From Saccoglossus kowalevskii (lineage: Eukaryota > Hemichordata > Enteropneusta > Harrimaniidae), in the NCBI RefSeq assembly GCF_000003605.2, contig NW_003113463.1:126477-151031 (forward strand): a stretch of 24,555 nucleotides of DNA, in the 5' to 3' direction. The notes under the pieces were generated by a model that was not told where the DNA came from, ran no database searches, and worked only from the letters and a program-made list of their open reading frames with translations. A program made the position numbers and the translations under genes. Below are positions 1-16,310 of this stretch, piece after piece; positions within the stretch are counted from its first letter, which is position 1; each line of letters starts with the position of its first letter.

Positions 1-459
1 GGCATCATTTCCGCTATACCACCAGAATGGAGAGGCTGTACTCCCTTTTTTGTTAGACCAAAATTGCCATTTAGCGTTACCATTGAAACAAAACTCCAAG
101 AATTCCAGTGCAAACTAAATCATAATGTTTTATTTACGAATATTATGCTTCACCGTATGAGACCTCCTCTCGTCACCTCTAGCCTTTGTTCTTTTTGTCA
201 TAATAGCGATGAAACTCTAACACATTTATTCGTTACATGCAATTATGTTACTGTCCTTTGGACATCAATATGTAATAGATGGGGTGAATTTTTAAATACC
301 CCAGACACTTTCACAGATATTCAAATTTTGCTGGGCGATGATCAGTTCTCAAGTTTATTTAACCACATCATTATTATAACTAAACACATTATTTATTCCT
401 GTAAATTAAATGACACTTCACCTTCATTTCGTCTGGTAGAAAAAAAAAGTTATTTATAG
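1..459 (+). CDS. 3' end of a LINE ORF2 (reverse transcriptase C-terminal zinc-binding region), partial
   Basis: The frame is open from the first base of the window to the TAG at 457-459 (152 residues), so the protein enters from outside. It begins with an ISAIPPEWR-type stretch and contains a C-x2-C-x8-H-x4-C motif. The Cys codons start at nt 187, 196 and 238 and the His codon at nt 223. This is the zf-RVT zinc-binding module found after the reverse transcriptase domain in L1/Tx1-like LINEs. The catalytic RT and endonuclease domains, if present, lie upstream of the window. An A-rich tract follows shortly after the stop, as expected for a LINE 3' end. In intact elements ORF2 drives target-primed reverse transcription. 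Whether this copy is intact or 5'-truncated cannot be seen. The family assignment (L1/Tx1-like rather than CR1 or RTE) is inferred from the zinc motif context. Confidence 0.8.
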   Translation, partial: GIISAIPPEWRGCTPFFVRPKLPFSVTIETKLQEFQCKLNHNVLFTNIMLHRMRPPLVTSSLCSFCHNSDETLTHLFVTCNYVTVLWTSICNRWGEFLNTPDTFTDIQILLGDDQFSSLFNHIIIITKHIIYSCKLNDTSPSFRLVEKKSYL

Positions 460-3196: not shown

Positions 3197-3202
3197 TTTA
3201 AT
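3197..3202 (-). terminator. Candidate poly(A) signal ATTAAA of the PDLIM-like gene
   Basis: The minus strand has ATTAAA about 118 nt after the TAG stop, followed within 20 nt by a GU-rich stretch (TTGGTTTGTG), the usual arrangement of a cleavage site. AATAAA hexamers further on (3068-3073 and 3051-3056, read on the minus strand) are alternatives that would give a longer 3' UTR. Confidence 0.45.
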
Positions 3203-3319: not shown

Positions 3320-3530
3320 CTACAATTCTTCAGAATCTTCTAAAATCCTGTGTAATTTCACGAAAGACGGCGATTGGATGACAGGGTTACCGTAATCATA
3401 ATATTCGATTTCGTCGTCTTCAAACCCTTTCACATATTGCGCACTCGTTTGTCCTGGTCTTCCCGGGGGCGTGGCGGCATGTACTGTCTTGTAAACGTCA
3501 GATCCGCTGTCCACGCCGACGCGAAAGTTT
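3320..3530 (-). CDS. PDLIM-like gene, terminal exon 5 (DUF4749-like pre-LIM tail and stop)
   Basis: The acceptor TTTGTTTCCAG lies before 3530. One base completes codon 778, then 69 residues run to TAG at 3322-3320. The order VDSGSDVYK (784-792), an acidic tract EDDEIEYYDY (815-824) and QSPSFVKLHRILEDSEE (830-846) matches the segment just before the LIM domain in PDLIM1-4 (SEVYK ... QSxSFxxLQEILE). In those proteins the chain continues into a LIM domain; here it ends SEEL. A weak GT (TT|GTAGAA) overlaps the stop codon. An alternative splice from there into a distant LIM exon cannot be excluded, but no such exon is visible in the window. Confidence 0.85.
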
Positions 3531-6500
3531 CTGGAAACAAAGAGTAAAGAGTACCACTATTTATTACCCATAATGCAAATGTGCTTCCGTGTAACACGCA
3601 AGAAATGGTTACTCCAAATAAGTGTTCTAAAATACGTTTTATGGATGGTTTCCAATGCATCCATATAAATGTGTCGCTGTGATGGTAAATTAAAGATGCA
3701 ATATGGTCGAGAACATGTACATGTATTTTTACTATTCATATTAGATGATGATGAACTTGGAATACGTTAGGCTATGATTTATGATAAACTGGCACACTTC
3801 GTATTCGTTTCATAAAACGACACAATTCTCTAATACGCATGCGCACTTGTTGTTTTGGTATGGACATTAGCAATCATTGCACATGCGTGCATATTAGTGG
3901 TTTTTAATTTTTCATCTAAAGAGTACTCTCGTGTGCCCTGTGAACACAAGATAATGATAAATCATAATAAGATTTGGTCTACAGTATGGTATATCATTTA
4001 AACAATAATATTATATTAATATTTAAGTGGGAGGGTCGTCACCTGCGCACGCGCGGAAATCGAATCCCAAGCTCTTGGGTAGACGCTATGGCCATCTGAC
4101 GCATGCTAACTAGTCCTAAAATAATCGCAAAATGTGTTGATTATCGTTTATTAACTGAAGGCAATTATTAAATACACAGCAATTCTACGCATAGCTCTGT
4201 CATAACATTGGTGTAATTTGTCAAAGTACTATACAATTTATATAGTACATAACAAATTTTGGATAGTGATGCAATTGTCATACGTATACAGCTGCGCGTG
4301 GTTACCATGGAGATGAGAAAATGTATGGTGTCCAATTGCTGTAATTTGATTTGTGATTTGGCATTTGTGATAATTGTAAATAGCATAATGACAATAAATA
4401 TGATTGTTTTTATTTTATTTTATTACAGTAAGCATCTTTAATGGCAAAATGTGAATAAAAGAAAATGAAGTAAAACGGACTAAAAGCGAAAAAAATGGTT
4501 CTTCTGTTGCACACACAACAATATTCGTTACATGGAAAACACTAGGCATATGAACTGTTTGTTATAATTATACGTACCAACATAACAGTGCGCATGCGTT
4601 CATTGTTTCACCGTACGAATACACAGTCGAGAACAGGTTATGACAAATAATAGTTCGTCAATCTACAGTATCGAACAACAATACTAAAATTTGACGTGGT
4701 CTAATTATAGACCATTTCCGTTCACTGCGAGATCCCGCATTATGTGTGAAACAGGACAAACGCGACAATCGCTTTATTGTGTGCTGTACACGTTTGACTA
4801 TGGTGAATTTTGATGAAGTAAAAGTATTCCAACACCATATTCCTCTCTGAAAGAGCGACATTCCGACGGAATAACCGCTCAAATCATTCGATCTTTTGCG
4901 GCTGACGTTCGATCCACGGCTTTCACGATATCTCGCAGTTGATGGAAACTCGCTTATTGCATAATATTCATTCTTCAATGTGCCTCAATCCAATATTAAA
5001 TGTTATCCTATGAGCCATCCCAACAACTGAGTACAATTTACTTTAGCCAGTATTTACGCCAGTATTGGCGGTTTTCCCATGAAACACAATATATTTGTAG
5101 AGGACGAAGCAGTTAGCTTTTTGCCACAAGAGGGCGCGGTATAGGCGACGATGTCTCCATCGGAAACTGTATTGAATACGCAATGAGATACACAATGCAC
5201 AGACGACAAGCAATTGTCTACGCAATAATCGGTCCTAGAAGGACATGAATTACCGACAAAAACGAAGCGGTTATGTGTATTATGAGTGTTATGATGATTG
5301 AATTTCCAACAAAATATCGATAGAATGAACTAGTACTAGTATATAGTGTTTACCGCTCTGTATCATATAGTAGGTAAATTCAACAAAGCTATACAAAGTA
5401 TAGTACTGGTTTACGGTTGTTGTCATAGTGACAGGGGGATATTTGCATATGCGGTTAATGGTTAATAACCACCCCGGTCATAAACCATTAACGCGGACCA
5501 ATTATCCCAAAGCTAAATTAAGGGGAACTCGTAAAGGGTTCACAACACTCACAATTCGTAATGCAGACACTATAACATCGTGGAGATAGCACGCCGAGAT
5601 ACATTTCAATGAGAGATGTGAGTGGTACGGGGTAATGTATGGACACTCAAGTGAATGACATTCCCACGTCAAACCCGTTCCTGAACAATGGTGTACTCTA
5701 TGTCCTAGATAGTTTGGAACTTAAAGCGGGGGGAGTCGTCACCTGCGCATGCGTCATATGGCCATAGCGTGTCGTTGTTTACAAACAAACATCTACCCAT
5801 GAGCCTTTGCGTTTTTAGCGTGTGTTATTATCGTCGCTTGGGACTCAATTCCCGCGCGTGCGCAGGTGACGACCCTCCCGCTTTAATATTGTATGTGTAA
5901 TCACGTTTAGTAATCGCCAGTTATACCAGTTTATTGATGCACGTTTGAGCAAATATGACGTCACGATTCTTCTTCGCGTTTGCCTGCGATGTTTACAGCA
6001 ATCAACAATGAGAACCGAGAATACACGTGTCTTTATAATCAGTACAATTTAGCATTTGTACGCGTTTTCCACAAAGTCGTGGGAAAGGTAACCAAAAACA
6101 ATAGAAATTGTTAACTGTTTTTGGTCTAACAGGGGGAATACAACACTTGTTTTTAATTATGCCAAAATTCGCGACTACAGACTATATATAGAACACATGT
6201 CAAATATCCCACGCCTTGCTGAGAATATCGACGCTATCAGTTTTCTCTGGTGCGTGAGGAGTTTTGCGATCAACTTTGCACTCTTCACCATTTTCAATTG
6301 CGCGTACGTACCCGTTTCACATGTTAATTTTCAAAGTATAAAAGTGATATGGTTGACCCTAGATCACTTTCAATGTGATTATCTGCGCTGACATAACTAA
6401 TAAAACGCAGTTTGATTACAAGGTCAGAACATTAGTTAACTACGTTACGACCAACTCTGGTCATGTGCCCTCTAATACCGCAAGCATGCAGCTCACTTTC

Positions 6501-9500
6501 TTAACAATACAAAGTTCCTACTGAACAGAAATTATAATTTAAACCCCAGCGCTTCCTTTGAAATTTATCACCCATTAACCATGGTTGCGCAAACATGATG
6601 GCATGTATATACCCACAAGGCCATGATAGCAACCTATCAAGTAGACAATAGGGCAAATACCATCTAGACATCAAAGCGGCGGCATAGATAAGTTTGAAAA
6701 TTTGATAGCATTTTGGTTTAAGGTTTATACACACACTGGGTTATAAGGTGTCGTAAAGTGAAAATATGCTGTAGTTTGTAGCGCTCAGAGTAGTAGTCAT
6801 TAAATGAAAAATGAACAGCCTTTGAAATGTTAGCCTGACATGTAGGCGTGAGTGGCGCCCTCACCGACCGAACGGCATCAGACCCCGCGACCTTGTCAGA
6901 CTATTGAATTGTTGGTACGTTCATGCGCATTTGAATAAATTTAAGTTTTGAACGTGTTACACTAACAGTGTTACTACACATTGCATACGCCATGTTTTGT
7001 AATGTACATGGAAACAGTCAGCATCGGAAACTAAACAATTTATTCTATACTTACAGTGGTCGTGGTTTTGTCTTGGCCGCGTCTTGAATAGCGTTATACA
7101 CATTCCCAGTTGAGCGACGTGGTTGGTTTAAATGTACGGGATCAGGCCCTGAATCTGAATACGTACGTGTGTTATAGTATTCTGCCTCGGATTCGCTAAA
7201 ATATTGGGGATTAGTATATTTTGGTATTTCTTGTTGGTCATTTTGCACAACGTAATCATTTGTTGACATCCAAACATGGTGTGGTTGGTTTCCATGACTA
7301 CGAGGACCGTGTAAATGTGTATGAGTAGGGAAGTGCTTCTGGTAATCTGATGTATTTTTGTCTTCACTGCTGAACGGTGTTGCGTTTCTTCTCTGTAATA
7401 ATCAAAAACACAAAACAAAATTGTTGGCAACCATCATGGTGAAAACAAAGGGTGTGCTTAAACCGAAGAACGAAGAAAATATATGTTATGATTAAACAGT
7501 ATGAACGATGAGTGCATGTAAATGTATTAAACTGTTATGATTAAACAGTATGAATATTCTGTCTTCGTTCTTTGTTTTTCGTTCTTCGGTTTAAACACAC
7601 CCGACAACAAATTTTCAGAAAACGGTATTTTGGGATGGTTGTTGACACCCCCCTGAACAGTGTAACAAGATTACCCCTACATATGCAACATATTTAAATT
7701 TGATTGTTTAGGATGTCTTCAAAGTTTGTGCTGTTTTCTCGATTTTAGCTATTTTCACCGGCTTTTCGACCGGTGTTTCACAGCAGCTCACCCGGCAGCT
7801 CGCGCAGAGCCCATATAAATACAAGGTAGAGTGGTGCGCGTCTTAAATAGCAACGTTGAGCGTCTCGTGAATTAGTTCCGCCCCGAAGATTATGATAGCT
7901 TGGCCAAGCGCGTTGAAGAAAGAAGCAATATGATTGGCTGTTGGTAAACTGATTCTAAACTGTGAGGGCATTGTCACATACACGTAGTCCTAATGAAATA
8001 CTTCAATGTGATAGTGGAGTGCTTCGCCGGAACATTCACCTTGAAAATTCAAGATGGTAATTTCATAGTGAAAACATATTTATTTTGCATCGCATGACCG
8101 CCATCATCATCACCACCACCAACCACTAATACCGATGACTGTAAACATGCACCAATATCTATTTCATCTCTATATCCGGGTAAATGTCATACTTACATAA
8201 TCTGAGTACTGTGTTGAATCCGCAGGTCTCCATTCTGGTTTTCCGTGCGGGGTGTCCCTCAGTTCAGTCGGTGCGGGCGCTCTTTGAAATGTGGTACCGC
8301 CTGCGTACTCGCCTCGAGAATGTTGATACTGTGACGATCGATACTTTTGTTCAGGGACATCATTCAACGCACCAAAAGTTATGTTTTCTTTATTTTTATG
8401 AAAATCCATTTTTTGTCTAGATTGCTGATGTTGATTTAGACTAGACATATCGCCTTCACTATAGCGGCCCTTTCGTCTACGAGTATATCTAGGAGTAATG
8501 GCCTCGGTGTCGGACATAGCTACAACGTCGTCTGATATGAGCGCTTCTATTTTGTCGTAATATTTTGGCATTGTGGTCGGTTTATTCAGCGCGCGAGGCG
8601 TATATTGAGGTTCTCTAACCACTTCTCCGGCAGCACGAGTTAGGTTTGGTTCTGTACCGTTGTACTGTCGGCTTCCATGGACAGCCGTTCCAGCACTTGC
8701 TCTTCGTCTGGACGTATTCCCGCCAGGGTGTTGATGATGACCGGCGTTGAGAAAACTGCGACGCAAATTACCTCGATCGTAGTCCTCGGTATCACTGTAA
8801 AATTGGTTGCTAGGGGCAACGTAAGTTTTTACTGGCCGTCGTCTTGGTTGTCCTTCGATGTCGCTGTGATTAGGCACAGTGTCACTTCGCCTGATGTACC
8901 GCGTACGATGGTCTTCAACATCGCTATAGTATTGCTGACTCGGCATACCATGCCGACCGGTGTTTTGTCGACTGATTTCAGCGCGACTGTACAATTGCTT
9001 GTATGGGTTAACTACGCCGTTGCTCTGTGGAGATGACTGAGCGTTTCTTGATCGGGTGGGATTTCTGTTCATAGCTGCGGGTCTAATGTTTTGTTTTGGT
9101 ATAGACGCCACCGAGCTTGGTTTATCGTGTTGCTCCTTTTTACTGAGCAACTGTTGAGGGCGCATGATTTCACCGTCGCTGTGATACGCATCCTTCTCAA
9201 CCCTGCTGGGACGGATTTGATATTGACCGGAATCCGTTTTTGCATCTCTTTGCTCAGTCTCGTGTTGGAGCCGACCGTAGTATCCGGGAACCTTGGTGGG
9301 ACTTCTCATAGGTTCATACTGCTGTTCCCGAACTATTTCCTCTTTATTACTTGTCGCTGACCAAGAACTACACAGTGATTCCACGTCGGCGTCATCGGGA
9401 TTGGAACCATAGAGATGCGCCTTGGTGATTGGGCTACGAGTAATAACAGGCTTGTATACCGGGGAGGACTGCTTCGTACGCGGATCATGTATACAGCTTT

Positions 9501-12500
9501 CGAAATGCGCACTGTGTGGTCTTGCAGGAGTTGGCACACTGTCACGACGCGGTTCATATGCATCTTCATAAGTTGCCGGAGAATGATGTTTCACGTCAAA
9601 ATACCGATCAGGTGTTGCCATGGATATGACATTATGGGTTGAACCATTTTGGTTAATAAGCCTTTCATTGGTTTCTATTGGCGACTTTACATGAGACGAC
9701 GGCGACACAAAATTTCCCCTAGTTGCTCCGACCTCGTTCCCGGCAGTTTGTTTCCAAAGTTTAGTTTTGTCTTGCGAGGAATTCGACATATTAAGCTCAC
9801 CAGTACGCACTGGGGTATGGCCGTGGAGAGGAGGACTGAATTGGGAAACGAACGAGTGAGTTGATGACACCGGTGACGTTGCCATGGTGACAGCGCTGGT
9901 AGGCCTATTCCATACTGCTTGTGGGGGTGCGAATTTATACGTTCCCCTATTGAGAAAAAAAAACAGGAAAGGGAGTTCAATTTGTAAAATAATGCCGATT
10001 TTACTAATTTTAAAATGTAGTCGTTCAGTCAGCGATAATTTGTACCCACGGCATTCAGTAAAACACAATAATTACAAACTATATATTACACATCAACTTG
10101 AACAAAACACCGCTTTCATGAAATCATTTGTTTGTCAATCACGTTCGCAACATTAAGTTAGCGTGAACTAATGAAGCACGAATCACGTCCTGTGCAGTTG
10201 AGCGGATTAATGATTTGTATTAGTTTTACTGAAATGAATAAAAACAATGTAAATCGTACATTGTACACAGGTGTGTGTGCCTACGAACACCTGTGACCTA
10301 CGACGAGTTCAACATCCGGGCATTTCAATGGAAAGTTGCAATTCCTTACCTTCGAACTACAAGGCGGAGATCTCTTGTCGTAGAACGTATTATTTTAGTA
10401 GCCTCTGTCAGAGCCATGTCTTTTGTCCAATCATCGTTTATCTTCACAATTACGTCATTTGTTTTAACGTTTGCCTGGGCTGCCTTGCCTGTTGATATCA
10501 ACTGAGAGATCACGTGATTTAATTTATGATTGACAGTATTGCGTTCATGCACGTGCGATTTAACAGTGCTTTGTTAGTATATGGTTAGCATTTCAGGAGT
10601 AATTATGTCGTCTTGGAGTAATTATGTCGTCTTGGGCGGAGACTTCTGCTGTGAAATAAGCAAAACAAGTCCCTGGGAACTGCCAACGTCAGAACAATAG
10701 TCTGAACACATGATTATACTGACAATGGTACATGTTTTAAAAGTCTATACGAACTACATATGTTGGAATAATTCACATAATTGTGCATACATTTGTATAT
10801 ACCATATAAATATCATCTTAATATGTAGCACGTGATTAATTGTATCCAATCACAGATGCAAATATTGGGAAACAGAATATCTCAGTGTAATTCACGCTAA
10901 ATTCTCATGGGTAAACGTGGTTCACTGTAAAGTCGATACGTGTCCAGGCGGGGGTGCTGTGTTCCGATATACTTACGTATTCTAACGAGGATGCAATCGG
11001 AAACATGAGTCGCGCCCTCTAACTTCGAGGCGTGACGTTAATGTTTGAAATGGAGGTCGTTCACATCGTCGATGTTTTAATCTGTGGTCATATGCCAATA
11101 AAACCATTTTTTTGAAAAACCCTCCTACGAAACTTTAACGTCATATAAGCTTTGTGTCGCTAGAGGGCGCTACTTCCAGGGAAGCTGCTTGGAAGCTGTA
11201 TTATTGCTTGATTTATGGCCGCCATGCTTTGACACTGATACGCATTGTTGAGGATAATATGCGAGATATTTCTGAGTTCGTGATGATGTGTTTATGTGTT
11301 AATTTTATCAACGTATGTTGAGTTACAAGACAAGTCATTCGGTTCAACGTTTAATGACTTGTTGTTGGTATGGTTGAATTCATTCCAATGAGGGCAAATA
11401 TTCTCTGACAATTGGGAGTCGTTTTTACTATGTCGACATGTTGTCAGGTTAATGCATGCGCTCTTCTTTTGTGGGACAAAATAAGTATACTAGGGGGTCT
11501 TTGTGAAACTTTAACGCCACTGTCATGAAACAGTGTAGCGAGAGGAAAGTCGTCCTGCTACCAAAAACTTAAGATGCGCAAATTCCGAGCACATATTTTC
11601 TTTATGAAAAATGGGGTTTAATATTATTACAAATGTTCTGTTTGTAAACTTTAAAAGAGTAGGAAATCGTTTCGTTTGATTGTATATAATGTTAGTATTC
11701 GTAATCTTAAACCCCACTGTCGTTAATTTAAATTGTTAACTACAGATTATGCATCTTGGCTAAGTTGCAAAGTGTGATCAGTATACAATCTTCTACGTGG
11801 GGTTCACATGAGAAGATTCACACTATATAAAAAAATATGAAACATGTTTATTTCAATAATTGGCTGAAACTAATTAATATACACCTATACTTAGTTAACA
11901 GACTATTTACCTACATGATTGGATACACATATTCAAATAAAAAAAATGTAAATTATTAATTAAATATTTTAATAATTTACATAAATTATGTACGACTTCG
12001 TTTATATCTCACGTGCATTATCGCGAGGTGGAGATGATTATATTCGTCCTGTTGAAAACTGAAGGATCATTCTTGATTCAAGTAATGGGTTATGTAATGC
12101 ATCCATGACAAATAAATCAACTTTTCGTATCAGTGTCATGATACGGCTGCCACTGTTGAGACCTTTCGAATGATTATTTTTATGATTTGTGTAAGCCATA
12201 CTAATTCAGAAGACTACTATTACATTCGACCTCATATTTTAATTTAGACAGTATACGTAGAGTATAATCCTATATTGAACTTTAACCTTTAAGTTCCGAT
12301 AACGAAAACAGCATTTGGACTTGCATATTATTTTCTGACCACCGGGTTATGAAAAACAATCCCGAAGTAGGAATTCCTCTGGACCTACTTTTTTTTTAGA
12401 TTACTACTTTTACATTGTCCCCGTAGTTTATGTTTAATTTTTATTGTTGGTGATTTAATACTGTCATTGCAATGTTGTTTTTATTTTATTATATACTAGT

Positions 12501-14672
12501 ACATATTTTAGTGGGCCTCAGGGTAGATTAGAATTCAGCTTAATAATTACTAACAGTGAATAGTGCTTTATAAAAATGTACTGACCCCCCCCCCCCCAAA
12601 TATTACATTTCAAGAATGGTTACATTTTTTTTCTTATTTGAAGAAAATATACTTGCATTTGAAATTGACTTTTTGCAACGCATATTAAGCACGTTTTTGT
12701 TTGGTATCCATATGTGTCCGTCGGTATATGATTCTTTGGTCTGTTTTTTTTTCTGAACGAATAAAATGTGAGTATTGTAAATAACTCGAAATATTCACTA
12801 AAAATGATCTTGGAGATGGGAGTACGCGATTGTACACAACCACTGTCCCTTCATACGAACGATGGTACAACGTTCTTTTTTGTAATAAGACCGTAGATAA
12901 AGTCTTTGTAACTTGGCTCAGAAACGGGGCTAGAACTCGGGAATGTTTCTCGCGCGTTTATCGGGCAACTGAACCAAACGACTGTATGTTTATTTTAATC
13001 AATTACTGGCGGATCTTGATGCATATTCAATATTATTATATATAATTATATATTATTGATCTAATATATCGATGTTTTAACATATTAATTAGCTGCATGA
13101 TTTAATACGAACTTTTAAATTTCATTTTCTGTTTATTAAATTACATCATTATTTGTTTACGTGTATTGTATGACACGGAACGAAAACGATCCTTGGAAAC
13201 CCTTTGAGATTTGATATATAATACAAGATTTACCATAAACTAAACAATTGGCCGTCTTAGTGTCATGATACGTTTGCCACTGGTGGGACCTTGGAATATA
13301 TCTGACAGTATTTTTTATGATTTATGTAAACCATACTAATTTAGAAGTCTCCGATTACACACGAAGATGTGTAAGTATTCCTCGTATTATGGATAATCTA
13401 AAAACGCTGCGGTTGATATCTTGTTGGGGGCGTGTTGATAATTACTCATATGTTTCTGTGATTAAGACAAGTGATACCTATATATACATATTTATATAAT
13501 TTTTTAAGTTTCTGAGGAAAATCCAAATCGTGTGTGTGATCTTAAAACCAGTATGTCACCATTAACATTATTGATACATGTTGGAGTCATGATACTATTT
13601 TACCGACTGTGGTGCATTTTCTGTTCCCGTGATTTGATTTTAAGTAGATTTGTTCATTTTTATGAGGGGCTTACTGTATATGCTTAACGCGTCGATGCAC
13701 TATGCATCAATATATTCTAATTTGAAAAAAATATCGCGTTGGTGCGTTTATTTTTCTGTGATTGCATACGTAATACCAGGCGGACCTTTATTCTCTCCGC
13801 GGATATAGTTATCATATTTTATGTGATATCGCATAACGGATATACGAATCATACGATTACTGCGCTGACAGTTTGCATGAGTTTAACGCATGAAATGTAC
13901 ACTGCAATAAACATCCATCCGCACAATGCTTGGGCAAGTAAACATTTATCGCCATGACTCTAAAAGCCAACATACGTTTACAGTAAAAAAGGAAGGTAAC
14001 TGGCTGGGAGTGAATAGAGAGAGAGCTGTAAATCACATTTAACCCTGTCATTGGCAGGTAACATGGGTGTGGGTGAACCGTACAACAAGGCAGTCATCTG
14101 AAACGTCAACTTTAATTTCTCGTCGAGTTGTTATTGTTTAAAGAATTCTGTCTCGCAACTCCTACAAAATGACGTTTGTTCTAAACACTCGCGTCGAATT
14201 ATGGGTTCACTACGCAATCATATACTTTAGGTTCATGGTTTTACTGTACTGTAAAGTGGGGGAACATGACCTCTGTTGACCTATATGTTTAATGACTACA
14301 TTTTAACTATGCAGGATTCGTTGGTATGTGGTAGTGTTTAAAAGGGCGATTCAAAGGCCACGTATATACTACCTGTAAGCTGAATAGGTGCTCATACCAA
14401 TTAAGACGATACCCCGCCACAGTTGTACTGCATTTAGAACTCAATATTTGCAATGTTTTTTATTTTTATTTTAACAATTCGGGCGAGATTTTAATCAATT
14501 TAAATGTATATTTACGAAAAACAGGAGTACATTAAATAACACATGGTTTGATTAACGACAGATCGGTGAAGTGTCCTACCTTATATACAGTAAGCGGCTC
14601 GTTCGATTCGACGCCTCCTTTAACGCGAAATCCCCAAGGGCCTTCCCCCGATAGGGTGACTGCGAAATCCAT
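3320..14672 (-). CDS. PDZ/ZM-type ALP-Enigma (PDLIM/Zasp/Cypher-like) protein without LIM domains; whole gene model
   Basis: The model joins exons 14672-14580, 10501-10350, 9946-8197, 7392-7055 and 3530-3320, giving 847 residues. Residues 1-82 are a PDZ domain starting two to five residues after Met and containing GPWGFRVKGG, as in PDLIM proteins. Residues 83-777 are polar and probably disordered, with a ZM-like motif NPYKQLYSRAEI at 395-406 and repeated YSDxE-type motifs. Residues 789-846 resemble the PDLIM pre-LIM (DUF4749) tail. Family members bind alpha-actinin and anchor actin at Z-discs, stress fibres or adhesions; that role here is inferred. The usual LIM domain(s) are missing: the frame ends at TAG. 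LIM-less family forms exist elsewhere (short Cypher isoforms; fly Zasp66 and Zasp67). Synaptopodin-2-like proteins have a similar PDZ, but the ZM-like motif and tail favour PDLIM/Zasp. Orthology to one vertebrate paralogue cannot be decided, so no symbol is given. Confidence 0.88.
4023..4107 (-). mobile_element. Truncated, internally deleted copy of the 5721-5886 TTAA repeat
   Basis: The plus strand reads TTAAGTGGGAGGGTCGTCAC and continues through CTGCGCACGCGCGG. This matches the reverse complement of the right end of the 5721-5886 element almost base for base. It then jumps to GGGTAGA plus CGCTATGGCCATCTGACGCA, which are two separate internal blocks of the other copy. The final 26 or so bases of the opposite end are missing. 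It lies in opposite orientation to the 5721 copy and has lost one terminal inverted repeat. Confidence 0.75.
5124..5137 (+). promoter_or_regulatory. CTCF-like core motif CCACAAGAGGGCGC
   Basis: A full match to the CTCF core consensus CCASYAGRKGGCRS, except A at the Y position. It lies in intron 4. Its near twin at 2777-2790 is in the opposite orientation, on the other side of the last exon. Binding is unproven. Confidence 0.4.
5450..5495. repeat. Imperfect inverted repeat (hairpin)
   Basis: GCGGTTAATGGTT pairs with AACCATTAACGC across about 20 bases, with one bulged G. It could form a stem of about 12 bp. It lies within intron 4, 230 bp from the TTAA element; no further function is evident. 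Confidence 0.55.
5721..5886. mobile_element. 166-bp TTAA-bounded MITE (piggyBac-like)
   Basis: Both ends are TTAA. Inside them are inverted repeats of about 28 bp: AGCGGGGGGAGTCGTCACCT on the left, and AGCGGGAGGGTCGTCACCTG as the reverse complement of the right, each followed by GCGCAYGCG. There is no coding capacity. TTAA target duplication is the hallmark of piggyBac-type transposition, so a non-autonomous piggyBac-like MITE is the simplest reading; the superfamily is inferred. It has a truncated relative at 4023-4107 and a longer, diverged one at 23846-24145. Confidence 0.75.
7055..7392 (-). CDS. PDLIM-like gene, exon 4
   Basis: The acceptor TTATTACAG lies before 7392 and the donor CT|GTAAGT follows 7055. 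The 338 nt are read in phase 0 from exon 3 and end with two bases of codon 778 (Leu). Residues 666-777 start RRNATPFSSEDKN. They include a His-rich stretch (HFPTHTHLHGP) and a second NP-Y-S-type motif, YTNPQYFSESEAEYY (724-738), followed by TYSDSG. These continue the motif series of exon 3. No known domain is present. The exact frame match with both neighbours supports it as a real exon; its in-frame ATG at 7269 is internal, not a start. Confidence 0.82.
7393..8196 (-). other. Intron 3 of the PDLIM-like gene
   Basis: 804 bp with consensus GTAAGT donor and TTATTACAG acceptor. It contains a 153-bp inverted-repeat element (7450-7602). Nothing else recognisable. Confidence 0.85.
7450..7602. mobile_element. 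153-bp inverted-repeat element (MITE-like) in intron 3
   Basis: The left arm GGGTGTGCTTAAACCGAAGA is matched by the reverse complement of the right end, GGGTGTGTTTAAACCGAAGA; both continue ACGAA. The arms are about 28 bp with one mismatch in the first 20. The centre holds a 22-bp direct repeat, TGTTATGATTAAACAGTATG plus AA, at 7484-7505 and 7533-7554. No target-site duplication is obvious. The transcript could form a long hairpin. Confidence 0.7.
8197..9946 (-). CDS. PDLIM-like gene, large exon 3 (disordered linker with ZM-like and YSDxE motifs)
   Basis: The acceptor is a long T-rich tract ending CTCAATAG before 9946; the donor is a perfect GTAAGT at 8196-8191. The 1,750 nt give residues 82-665. 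The exon starts GTYKFAPPQAVWNRP, comparable to the VWSP segment after the PDZ in PDLIM1. The rest is rich in Ser, Arg, Gln, Pro and Tyr, with no hydrophobic core visible. A ZM-like motif NPYKQLYSRAEI lies at residues 395-406 (9009-8974). Around it are YHSDGE (336), YYSDVED (421), NHSDIEG (441), FYSDTED (464), MSDTEAI (559), YSEGD (577) and QYSDY at the 3' end. These look like degenerate copies of one short acidic motif. Stop-free plus-strand frames opposite this exon are shadows. A single 1.75-kb exon here is unusual, since PDLIM genes typically divide the linker among several small exons. Confidence 0.88.
9878..9891. promoter_or_regulatory. RFX X-box-like sequence inside exon 3
   Basis: GTTGCCATGGTGAC fits the RFX X-box pattern RYYNYY-N(1-3)-RRNRAC. 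It overlaps coding sequence for VTMATS near the 5' end of exon 3, so it may be coincidence of the codons. A better X-box lies upstream of the gene at 15908-15921. Confidence 0.2.
9947..10349 (-). other. Intron 2 of the PDLIM-like gene
   Basis: 403 bp, bounded by GTAAGG and a T-rich tract ending CAATAG. No internal feature recognised. Confidence 0.85.
10350..10501 (-). CDS. PDLIM-like gene, coding exon 2 (second half of PDZ)
   Basis: The acceptor CTCTCAG lies just before 10501 and the donor AAG|GTAAGG follows 10350. The 152 nt give residues 32-81 plus two bases of codon 82. The sequence LISTGKAAQANVKTNDVIVK continues the PDZ strands, then helix alphaB and the final strand LRLVVRR. GKAAQA and NDVIVKIN match the usual PDLIM pattern GKAAQAGV..GDxVxxI. 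At the alphaB1 position, where PDLIM PDZs usually have His, this protein has Leu (residue 62, codon 10411-10409), which may change ligand class. The phase (2) joins correctly to exon 3 to encode Arg82. Confidence 0.9.
10596..10633. repeat. 19-bp perfect tandem duplication
   Basis: GGAGTAATTATGTCGTCTT occurs twice in direct tandem without a mismatch. This suggests a recent slippage or duplication event. Confidence 0.9.
11012..11170. mobile_element. 159-bp inverted-repeat element with GCGCCCTCTA ends
   Basis: The left end GCGCCCTCTA is exactly mirrored by TAGAGGGCGC at the right end. Inside both ends the order continues with TGACGTTAATGTTTG on the left and TGACGTTAAAGTTTC (reverse complement) on the right. 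It is a small palindromic, non-coding element, best read as a MITE. The right end overlaps a CTCF-like core (CGCTAGAGGGCGC). Confidence 0.6.
11501..11552. repeat. Partial copy related to the right end of the 11012-11170 element
   Basis: GTGAAACTTTAACGCCA followed by TGTAGCGAGAGG resembles ACGAAACTTTAACGTCA followed by TGTCGCTAGAGG of the element 350 bp upstream. The CACTG...CAGTG inverted repeat between these blocks is unique to this copy. Short match, so only moderate support. Confidence 0.4.
11946..11982. repeat. Perfect 14-bp inverted repeat with 9-nt loop
   Basis: ATGTAAATTATTAA is followed after nine bases by its exact complement TTAATAATTTACAT. All pairs but three are A-T. It could extrude as a cruciform or form an RNA hairpin; no function is known. 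Confidence 0.7.
12131..12212. repeat. Dispersed direct repeat, copy 1 (about 85 bp)
   Basis: Starts AGTGTCATGATACG, then GCCACTG.TG.GACCTT, and ends TTTTTATGATTTGTGTAAGC plus CATACTAATTCAGAAG. The same blocks recur in order at 13258-13347. Probably two copies of an unclassified transposon, or an old segmental duplication. Confidence 0.7.
12585..12597. repeat. C13 homopolymer
   Basis: Thirteen consecutive C residues on the plus strand (G on the gene's strand), in intron 1. Likely unstable in length and prone to sequencing error. Confidence 0.9.
12926..12976 (-). repeat. Possible tRNA-derived SINE relic
   Basis: On the minus strand TGGTTCAGTTGC (12976-12965) resembles a pol III A box. After 26 bases GAGTTCTAGCCCC (12938-12926) resembles a B box (consensus GGTTCGANNCC). 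The order and spacing are tRNA-like, but the stems are poorly conserved, so this is not a functional tRNA gene. A decayed SINE head is the best guess, and it could be chance. Confidence 0.3.
13258..13347. repeat. Dispersed direct repeat, copy 2 (about 90 bp)
   Basis: Matches 12131-12212 in the same orientation, about 1,127 bp away: AGTGTCATGATACG, GCCACTG, GGGACCTT, TTTTTATGATTTATGTAAAC and CATACTAATTTAGAAG in order. A shorter related string (GTCATGATACTATTTTACCG) occurs at 13586-13605 and may be a third remnant. Confidence 0.7.
14580..14672 (-). CDS. PDLIM-like gene, coding exon 1 (start codon and first half of PDZ)
   Basis: The ATG at 14672-14670 is the only in-frame Met before the PDZ. 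It has a strong Kozak context (G at -3, G at +4). It starts the protein MDFAVTLSGEGPWGFRVKGG, matching how PDLIM proteins begin directly with the first PDZ strand. GPWGF is the carboxylate-binding loop. The exon ends AAG|GTAGGA, phase 0, after VYK (residue 31). PDLIM PDZ sequences read ..SISR|LTPGGKAA.. at this point and this gene reads ..TVYK|LISTGKAA.., so the split falls between the second strand and its following turn. Upstream a 5' UTR continues. A TTTTAG acceptor (exon from 14707) combined with a GTAAGT donor at 14793-14788 would give an 86-bp 5' UTR intron, but this is uncertain. Confidence 0.9.
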
Positions 14673-16054: not shown

Positions 16055-16310
16055 CGGAATACGAACAATGTTCAGAAACTGGACACGTGACCAAACCGAT
16101 CACGTGACCAGTCTTACTTGTTGAACCATTGCACAATACAGAATGCCAACAATGTTCATTTGCAACACGTGACCAATCTAACACGCTGTTTCAATGCACA
16201 CTATCGAATGCGAACAATGTTCAGAGACTTGTCACGTGAGCAACCTAATTTATTGTACCACTTTTCAGAAACTGGCTCATCTAACTTGTTGTACCGTTGT
16301 CACAAAACCT
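16055..16310. repeat. Degenerate tandem repeat (period about 65 bp) carrying CACGTG E-boxes
   Basis: Three units begin GAATRCSAACAATGTTCA, at 16057, 16141 and 16206, and continue to CACGTGACC, then CTAA..TTGTT..CCATTGCACA. A fourth, weaker unit starts near 16266. CACGTG occurs at 16084, 16101, 16166 and 16233. The first unit has an extra 17-bp duplication of the E-box block. Confidence 0.75.

Follow-up and report, generated by a model that had tools for sequence, protein, structure and literature searches.

We describe a minus-strand gene of the hemichordate Saccoglossus kowalevskii which we favour, with roughly even confidence, as a diverged ALP/Enigma-type PDLIM paralogue, whose model ends right after an ALP-like stretch and would comprise a PDZ domain and a long tail with no LIM domain. 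The gene lies in a stretch of 24,555 nucleotides (hereafter the window; positions 126477-151031 of contig NW_003113463.1, here C720, within a 572-Mb assembly). LIM-less Zasp-like genes have already been described in C. elegans, fly, Ciona and zebrafish (PMC1781342); the novelty here lies in the position of the gene next to other PDLIM-type exons, in the divergence of its PDZ domain and in the repeat of its linker.

Gene Structure and Linker

A script rebuild of the gene gave five exons and 847 codons followed by TAG, separated by introns of 4078, 403, 804 and 3524 bases that are GT-AG in 4/4 cases and consistent in phase, which bears out the structure proposed in an earlier, sequence-only reading of this DNA. 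The exons, in window coordinates, are the following:

14580..14672, minus strand: exon 1, which carries the start codon and opens the PDZ domain, PWGF loop included (script model)
10350..10501, minus strand: exon 2, remainder of the PDZ domain, with the helix-B region MALTEA
8197..9946, minus strand: exon 3, long linker rich in Ser, Pro and Arg, a 1,750-base open exon
7055..7392, minus strand: exon 4, further linker, its donor overlapped by an in-frame TAA
3320..3530, minus strand: exon 5, final exon of the model, ending at the TAG

The exon 1 donor (AAG/GTAGGA, phase 0) reaches 8.3 bits against a donor weight matrix. An in-frame stop follows soon past the exon 3 donor and another lies at that of exon 4, so that intron retention could also shorten the protein.

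The long linker that had been read from the sequence is present indeed, and spans residues about 83-778 (~700 residues). Two short patterns, both chosen post hoc, recur in the protein far above expectation: Q-[LFY]-[YF]-S-x-x-E in four copies (0.0025 expected) and S-[DE]-x-E in seven (0.52 expected), each count being reached by 0/20,000 shuffles. S-D-x-E conforms to the consensus of casein kinase 2. The copies of the first pattern are placed as follows:

8785..8997, minus strand: first three copies, at residues 399, 420 and 463, in exon 3
7186..7206, minus strand: fourth copy, QYFSESE, at residue 728, in exon 4

C-Terminal Tail and ZM Motif

The end of the protein had been assigned to the pre-LIM tail of PDLIM proteins. 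One stretch bears on this:

3329..3505, minus strand: AM-like stretch, GSDVYK ... QSPSFVKLHRILEDSE, of weak scores and the top segment of the readable contig

The tail of the gene reads GSDVYK...QSPSFVKLHRILEDSEEL with the TAG directly after, and may be set beside the ALP-like motif (AM) of human PDLIM1, which reads ESEVYKMLQ...QSTSFLVLQEILESEE. On a profile built from the AM stretches of four human PDLIMs, exon 5 ranks first among the six-frame segments of readable C720, with its two halves in order (4.2 + 6.9 bits); the stronger half has an E of 1.2 only, and the runner-up segment reaches 6.6 bits. Taken in isolation, the tail scores 7.2 bits, a value attained by 0/2,000 shuffled tails, and over the full-length protein the highest-scoring stretch has 2.5 bits, equalled by 9/2,000 shuffles. 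Pfam DUF4749 did not match the tail, in contrast with a human PDLIM3 control, which it matched over the same stretch at E 6.9e-27 and in which the same library detected DUF4749, PDZ and LIM alike. Exon 5 tops the AM scan, but with low bits and without a DUF4749 match, and the resemblance of the tail to AM is weakly supported.

The ZM-like motif that had also been proposed did not withstand the search: DUF4749 (PF15936) found no match in the window protein at E up to 10, and on a three-sequence ZM profile the score of the protein was equalled by 134/2,000 shuffles. A DUF4749 search across the animal's own genome gave no match and is uninformative, since the controls matched nowhere either. The linker repeats look like the ZM core (TPMQL, then Tyr-Ser; PMC2670261), a likeness that is visual and suggestive only. 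The same paper reports that localisation requires this Tyr-Ser pair in the ZM of ALP.

The LIM Question and the 3' End

No LIM domain was detected by Pfam in the 847-residue model. A LIM profile derived from eight LIM matches within the same genome (positive control contig C1052, 1e-10) was run on readable C720 (97,044/189,162 bases; 3,723 six-frame segments free of stops), including the 3.3 kb past the stop, and its best match had an E of 0.096, none being significant. In a LIM search of the whole genome, 59 candidates were scored and 36 of them matched at E up to 0.001; none of these lies on C720. A LIM first-finger pattern at window position 16209 (plus strand) lies upstream of the gene and outside it, and three loose second-finger patterns (7705, plus strand; 4520 and 15181, minus strand) stand without LIM context; these candidates were rejected.

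The claim of a gene without LIM therefore holds for the model and for the 3.3 kb past its stop, but it meets a gap, as C720:117464-126476 (9,013 bases, which follow immediately past window position 1, downstream of the gene) reads N. The gene is for this reason likely, rather than proven, to be LIM-less. Sequence is readable again at C720:94801-117463 and contains a rhodopsin-type GPCR exon at 105324-104839, a likely limit on how far the gene extends downstream.

Two features bear on the 3' end:

3197..3202, minus strand: ATTAAA hexamer 117 nt past the stop, followed by a GT-rich stretch, as a candidate poly(A) signal (motif match only)
3389..3390, minus strand: GT of a possible alternative donor in exon 5, ACG/GTAACC, 5.4 bits

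The donor-like site at the stop itself, ATT/GTAGAA, scores -2.2 bits, and ten poly(A)-like hexamers, with six variants allowed, occur within 1.2 kb of the stop. The poor donor at the stop, the hexamer 117 nt further on and the lack of LIM in readable C720 make a LIM-less end the plain reading.

A different reading, which we hold to be possible but on the unlikely side, takes exon 5 for an alternative last exon, with LIM exons located in C720:117464-126476 and the gene producing both LIM-bearing and LIM-less forms, like fly Zasp52 and mammalian PDLIM5. The N run offers room for such exons, its 9,013 bases comparing with introns of 0.4-4.1 kb, two of which (3.5 and 4.1 kb) are long in their own right, and this counts against a LIM-less paralogue. 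LIM genes are furthermore known to make LIM-less isoforms, and the donor inside exon 5 at 3391 looks usable, scoring nearly like those of exons 3 and 4 (the four used donors range over 6.3-11.4 bits). Its use, however, would remove the QSPSF half of AM, which is the better-matching half, and at the TAG, where AM ends, a good donor is absent. Against this reading stands also a query with the PDLIM1 LIM, which turned up no LIM of ALP type across the readable genome (nine candidates scored, best E 0.027), although introns, masking or the first-pass screen of the search could hide one.

As for the other LIM genes of the genome, the stretches covering 35/36 of the LIM matches were read, and most of these LIMs are presumably of Lhx/LMO, prickle/testin or zyxin type. 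Contigs C1052 (29000-56000) and C3160 (1508700-1522000) carry several LIM exons each; two of those on C1052 are 50-56% identical to LDB3 LIM2 along some 40 residues, and the 27,001 bases of this contig that were read, 6,071 of them N, showed no PDZ exon nearby. The LIM exons of both contigs could possibly belong to LIM partners, or form the LIM end of another gene.

The PDZ Domain and Its Relatives

The N-terminal PDZ domain proposed from the sequence was confirmed by Pfam (PF00595, residues 8-80, E 3.5e-9), and the three families that match the window protein at E up to 10 are all PDZ; the search of the complete model thus recovered this domain, with no match for DUF4749/ZM or LIM. Among PDB sequences, PDLIM5 is the top match (E 1.8e-14), followed by LDB3, PDLIM2 and PDLIM1, then by Shroom4 (E 9.7e-12), which stands above PDLIM7, PDLIM3 and PDLIM4. 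In a comparison of 11 sequences, the domain is 37-40% identical to those of seven human PDLIMs (two of them taken after a PDB-sequence match), 32% to that of SYNPO2 and 28% to that of Zasp52. Judged by its sequence, the domain is PDLIM-type. Nevertheless, it begins helix B with Leu (MALTEA), whereas His occupies this position (e.g., MTHLEA) in 9/9 PDLIM/Zasp PDZs, namely PDLIM1-5, PDLIM7, LDB3 and Zasp52 (in part PDB-sequence letters) and a neighbouring gene, C, described below. This His is typical of ALP/Enigma PDZ domains without formally defining them.

A PDZ query of the genome led to eight places, the gene itself among them. Two more PDLIM-type first exons lie on the same contig, outside the window and 24-28 kb upstream of the gene:

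C720:164907-164815, minus strand: exon B, a PDLIM-type exon 1, from the PDZ search
C720:169423 onwards, plus strand: exon C, a PDLIM-type exon 1, from the PDZ search
C720:186793-186954, plus strand: second PDZ exon that fits C, its intron at the same PDZ position as in the window gene

A distance of 4.5 kb separates B from C, the two being arranged head to head, and C runs toward the contig end. The pairing of the two exons of C, 17 kb apart with 172987-178455 unread between them, is inferred; once joined, they give a canonical PDZ that matches PDLIM1 at E 1.1e-28 and shares, in the 11-sequence comparison, 50-59% identity with six human PDLIMs and 38% with PDLIM2. Exon B is 74% identical to human PDLIM1 over 27 residues, vs 37% over 41 residues for exon 1 of the window gene. 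Both exons end in phase 0, and B could possibly serve the window gene as another first exon, although it matches PDLIM1 better; no next exon of B was seen, and C720:151032-158338 is unread. Two weaker PDZ places, on contigs C361 and C3225, are other PWGF-type exons of SYNPO2- and Shroom-like appearance, and a further place, on C4306 (E 3), seems unrelated. With more canonical PDLIM-type exons nearby and Leu at the start of its helix B, the window gene looks like a diverged PDLIM paralogue.

This kinship, also part of the sequence-only reading, is sustained by the PDB ranking and by the identity to PDLIMs, and partly contradicted by an unrooted tree of the 11 sequences, in which a weak split (support 53) sets the window gene and SYNPO2 apart from PDLIM/Zasp. 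An alternative that we judge improbable would place the protein with SYNPO2 and Shroom, as an actin scaffold that has a PDZ alone and lacked LIM domains from the outset, its AM likeness being due to chance. The tree split and the rank of Shroom4 above three PDLIMs speak for this, as does the absence of the helix-B His, replaced by Tyr in SYNPO2, and long disordered tails such as that expected here are usual in proteins of this kind. On the other side, four PDLIM-family proteins outrank Shroom4, identity to PDLIMs exceeds that to SYNPO2, the gene adjoins PDLIM-type exons, and exon 5 tops the AM scan. That the gene might be a decaying duplicate whose function is lost, as its diverged PDZ and the failure to find LIM and ZM could suggest, is very improbable given 847 open codons in five exons, intact splice sites and the open exon 3.

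Comparison with Known Systems and Possible Function

As a diverged PDLIM paralogue, the gene would share with the ALP subfamily (PDLIM1-4) an N-terminal PWGF-type PDZ, a long middle region and a putative AM-like stretch at the matching place, and would differ from it in the lack of LIM in readable sequence and of a DUF4749/ZM match, in the change of the helix-B His to Leu, and in the length and repeats of its linker. Defined by its domains, it does not count among the PDZ-LIM proteins; we regard it rather as PDLIM-related, and it may work like the LIM-less forms of this family.

Such forms are known in other animals. Fly Zasp66, Zasp67 and the LIM-less Zasp52 isoforms are, like the window gene as far as it is readable, ALP/Enigma relatives without LIM, and PMC6910826 reports that ZM binds LIM and that forms devoid of LIM stop Z-disc growth. 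The fly mechanism had been given as the PDZ of one molecule binding the ZM of another, which is not what that paper reports. The short ZASP-like genes (PMC1781342) are separate genes with PDZ and without LIM, as the window gene probably is, but they are described as PDZ + ZM, whereas the window gene ends in an AM-like stretch. In mammals, according to PMC11049100, LIM-less PDLIM5 forms (PDLIM5-short) oppose the long form; they share the LIM-less product, but are isoforms of a LIM gene, while the window gene is possibly a separate LIM-less one. The idea of a dedicated blocking form gains slightly from a diverged paralogue located beside canonical PDLIM-type exons. It is weakened by the undetectable ZM, since the fly LIM-less Zasps carry a LIM-binding ZM and block through it.

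The most likely origin of the gene would be a duplication in a local PDLIM cluster, followed by loss of the LIM-coding capacity. The encoded protein, with a long and probably disordered tail, would then act as a LIM-less scaffold, whose PDZ would dock on a partner, probably in actin or Z-disc structures; the change of the helix-B His to Leu leads us to expect a ligand preference altered with respect to the usual alpha-actinin tail. Deprived of LIM domains to recruit further partners, the protein may compete with its LIM-bearing relatives, as do, by analogy, fly and mammalian LIM-less forms. The kinase-site-like Q-[LFY]-[YF]-S-x-x-E repeats could, more speculatively, form a regulated and multivalent binding region.

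A bolder and unlikely proposal would join these elements into a LIM-less antagonist gene derived from the PDLIM cluster, in which the donor after the AM exon was lost, the PDZ was retuned from His to Leu, and a phosphorylatable, multiplied linker motif took the place of the single ZM, so that PDLIM assemblies would be capped by a contact other than that of flies. Should the LIM exons be truly absent, the gene would add a further separate case of an animal locus coding solely for a PDLIM relative without LIM, here with ZM undetectable, and would serve to test whether PDLIM/Zasp capping needs the ZM-LIM contact shown in flies or can evolve otherwise; if they are present, it would simply join the PDLIM genes in which a LIM-less end is an alternative.

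Repeats and Other Elements of the Window

An Rfam scan of the window gave 0 matches. Intron 4 contains a 55-nt inverted repeat (window 4018-4072 and 5836-5890, 91% complementary), with a related further copy between its arms at 5729-5753, which looks like a terminal-inverted-repeat element. Two direct-repeat families are found in intron 1 about 1.1 kb apart (window 12110-12229 and 13237-13364), their second copies being 77% and 85% identical. The zf-RVT domain encoded at window 73-261 (plus strand; PF13966, E 3.7e-8) belongs to an ORF that is open at the window start, and is the 3' end of a reverse-transcriptase retroelement.
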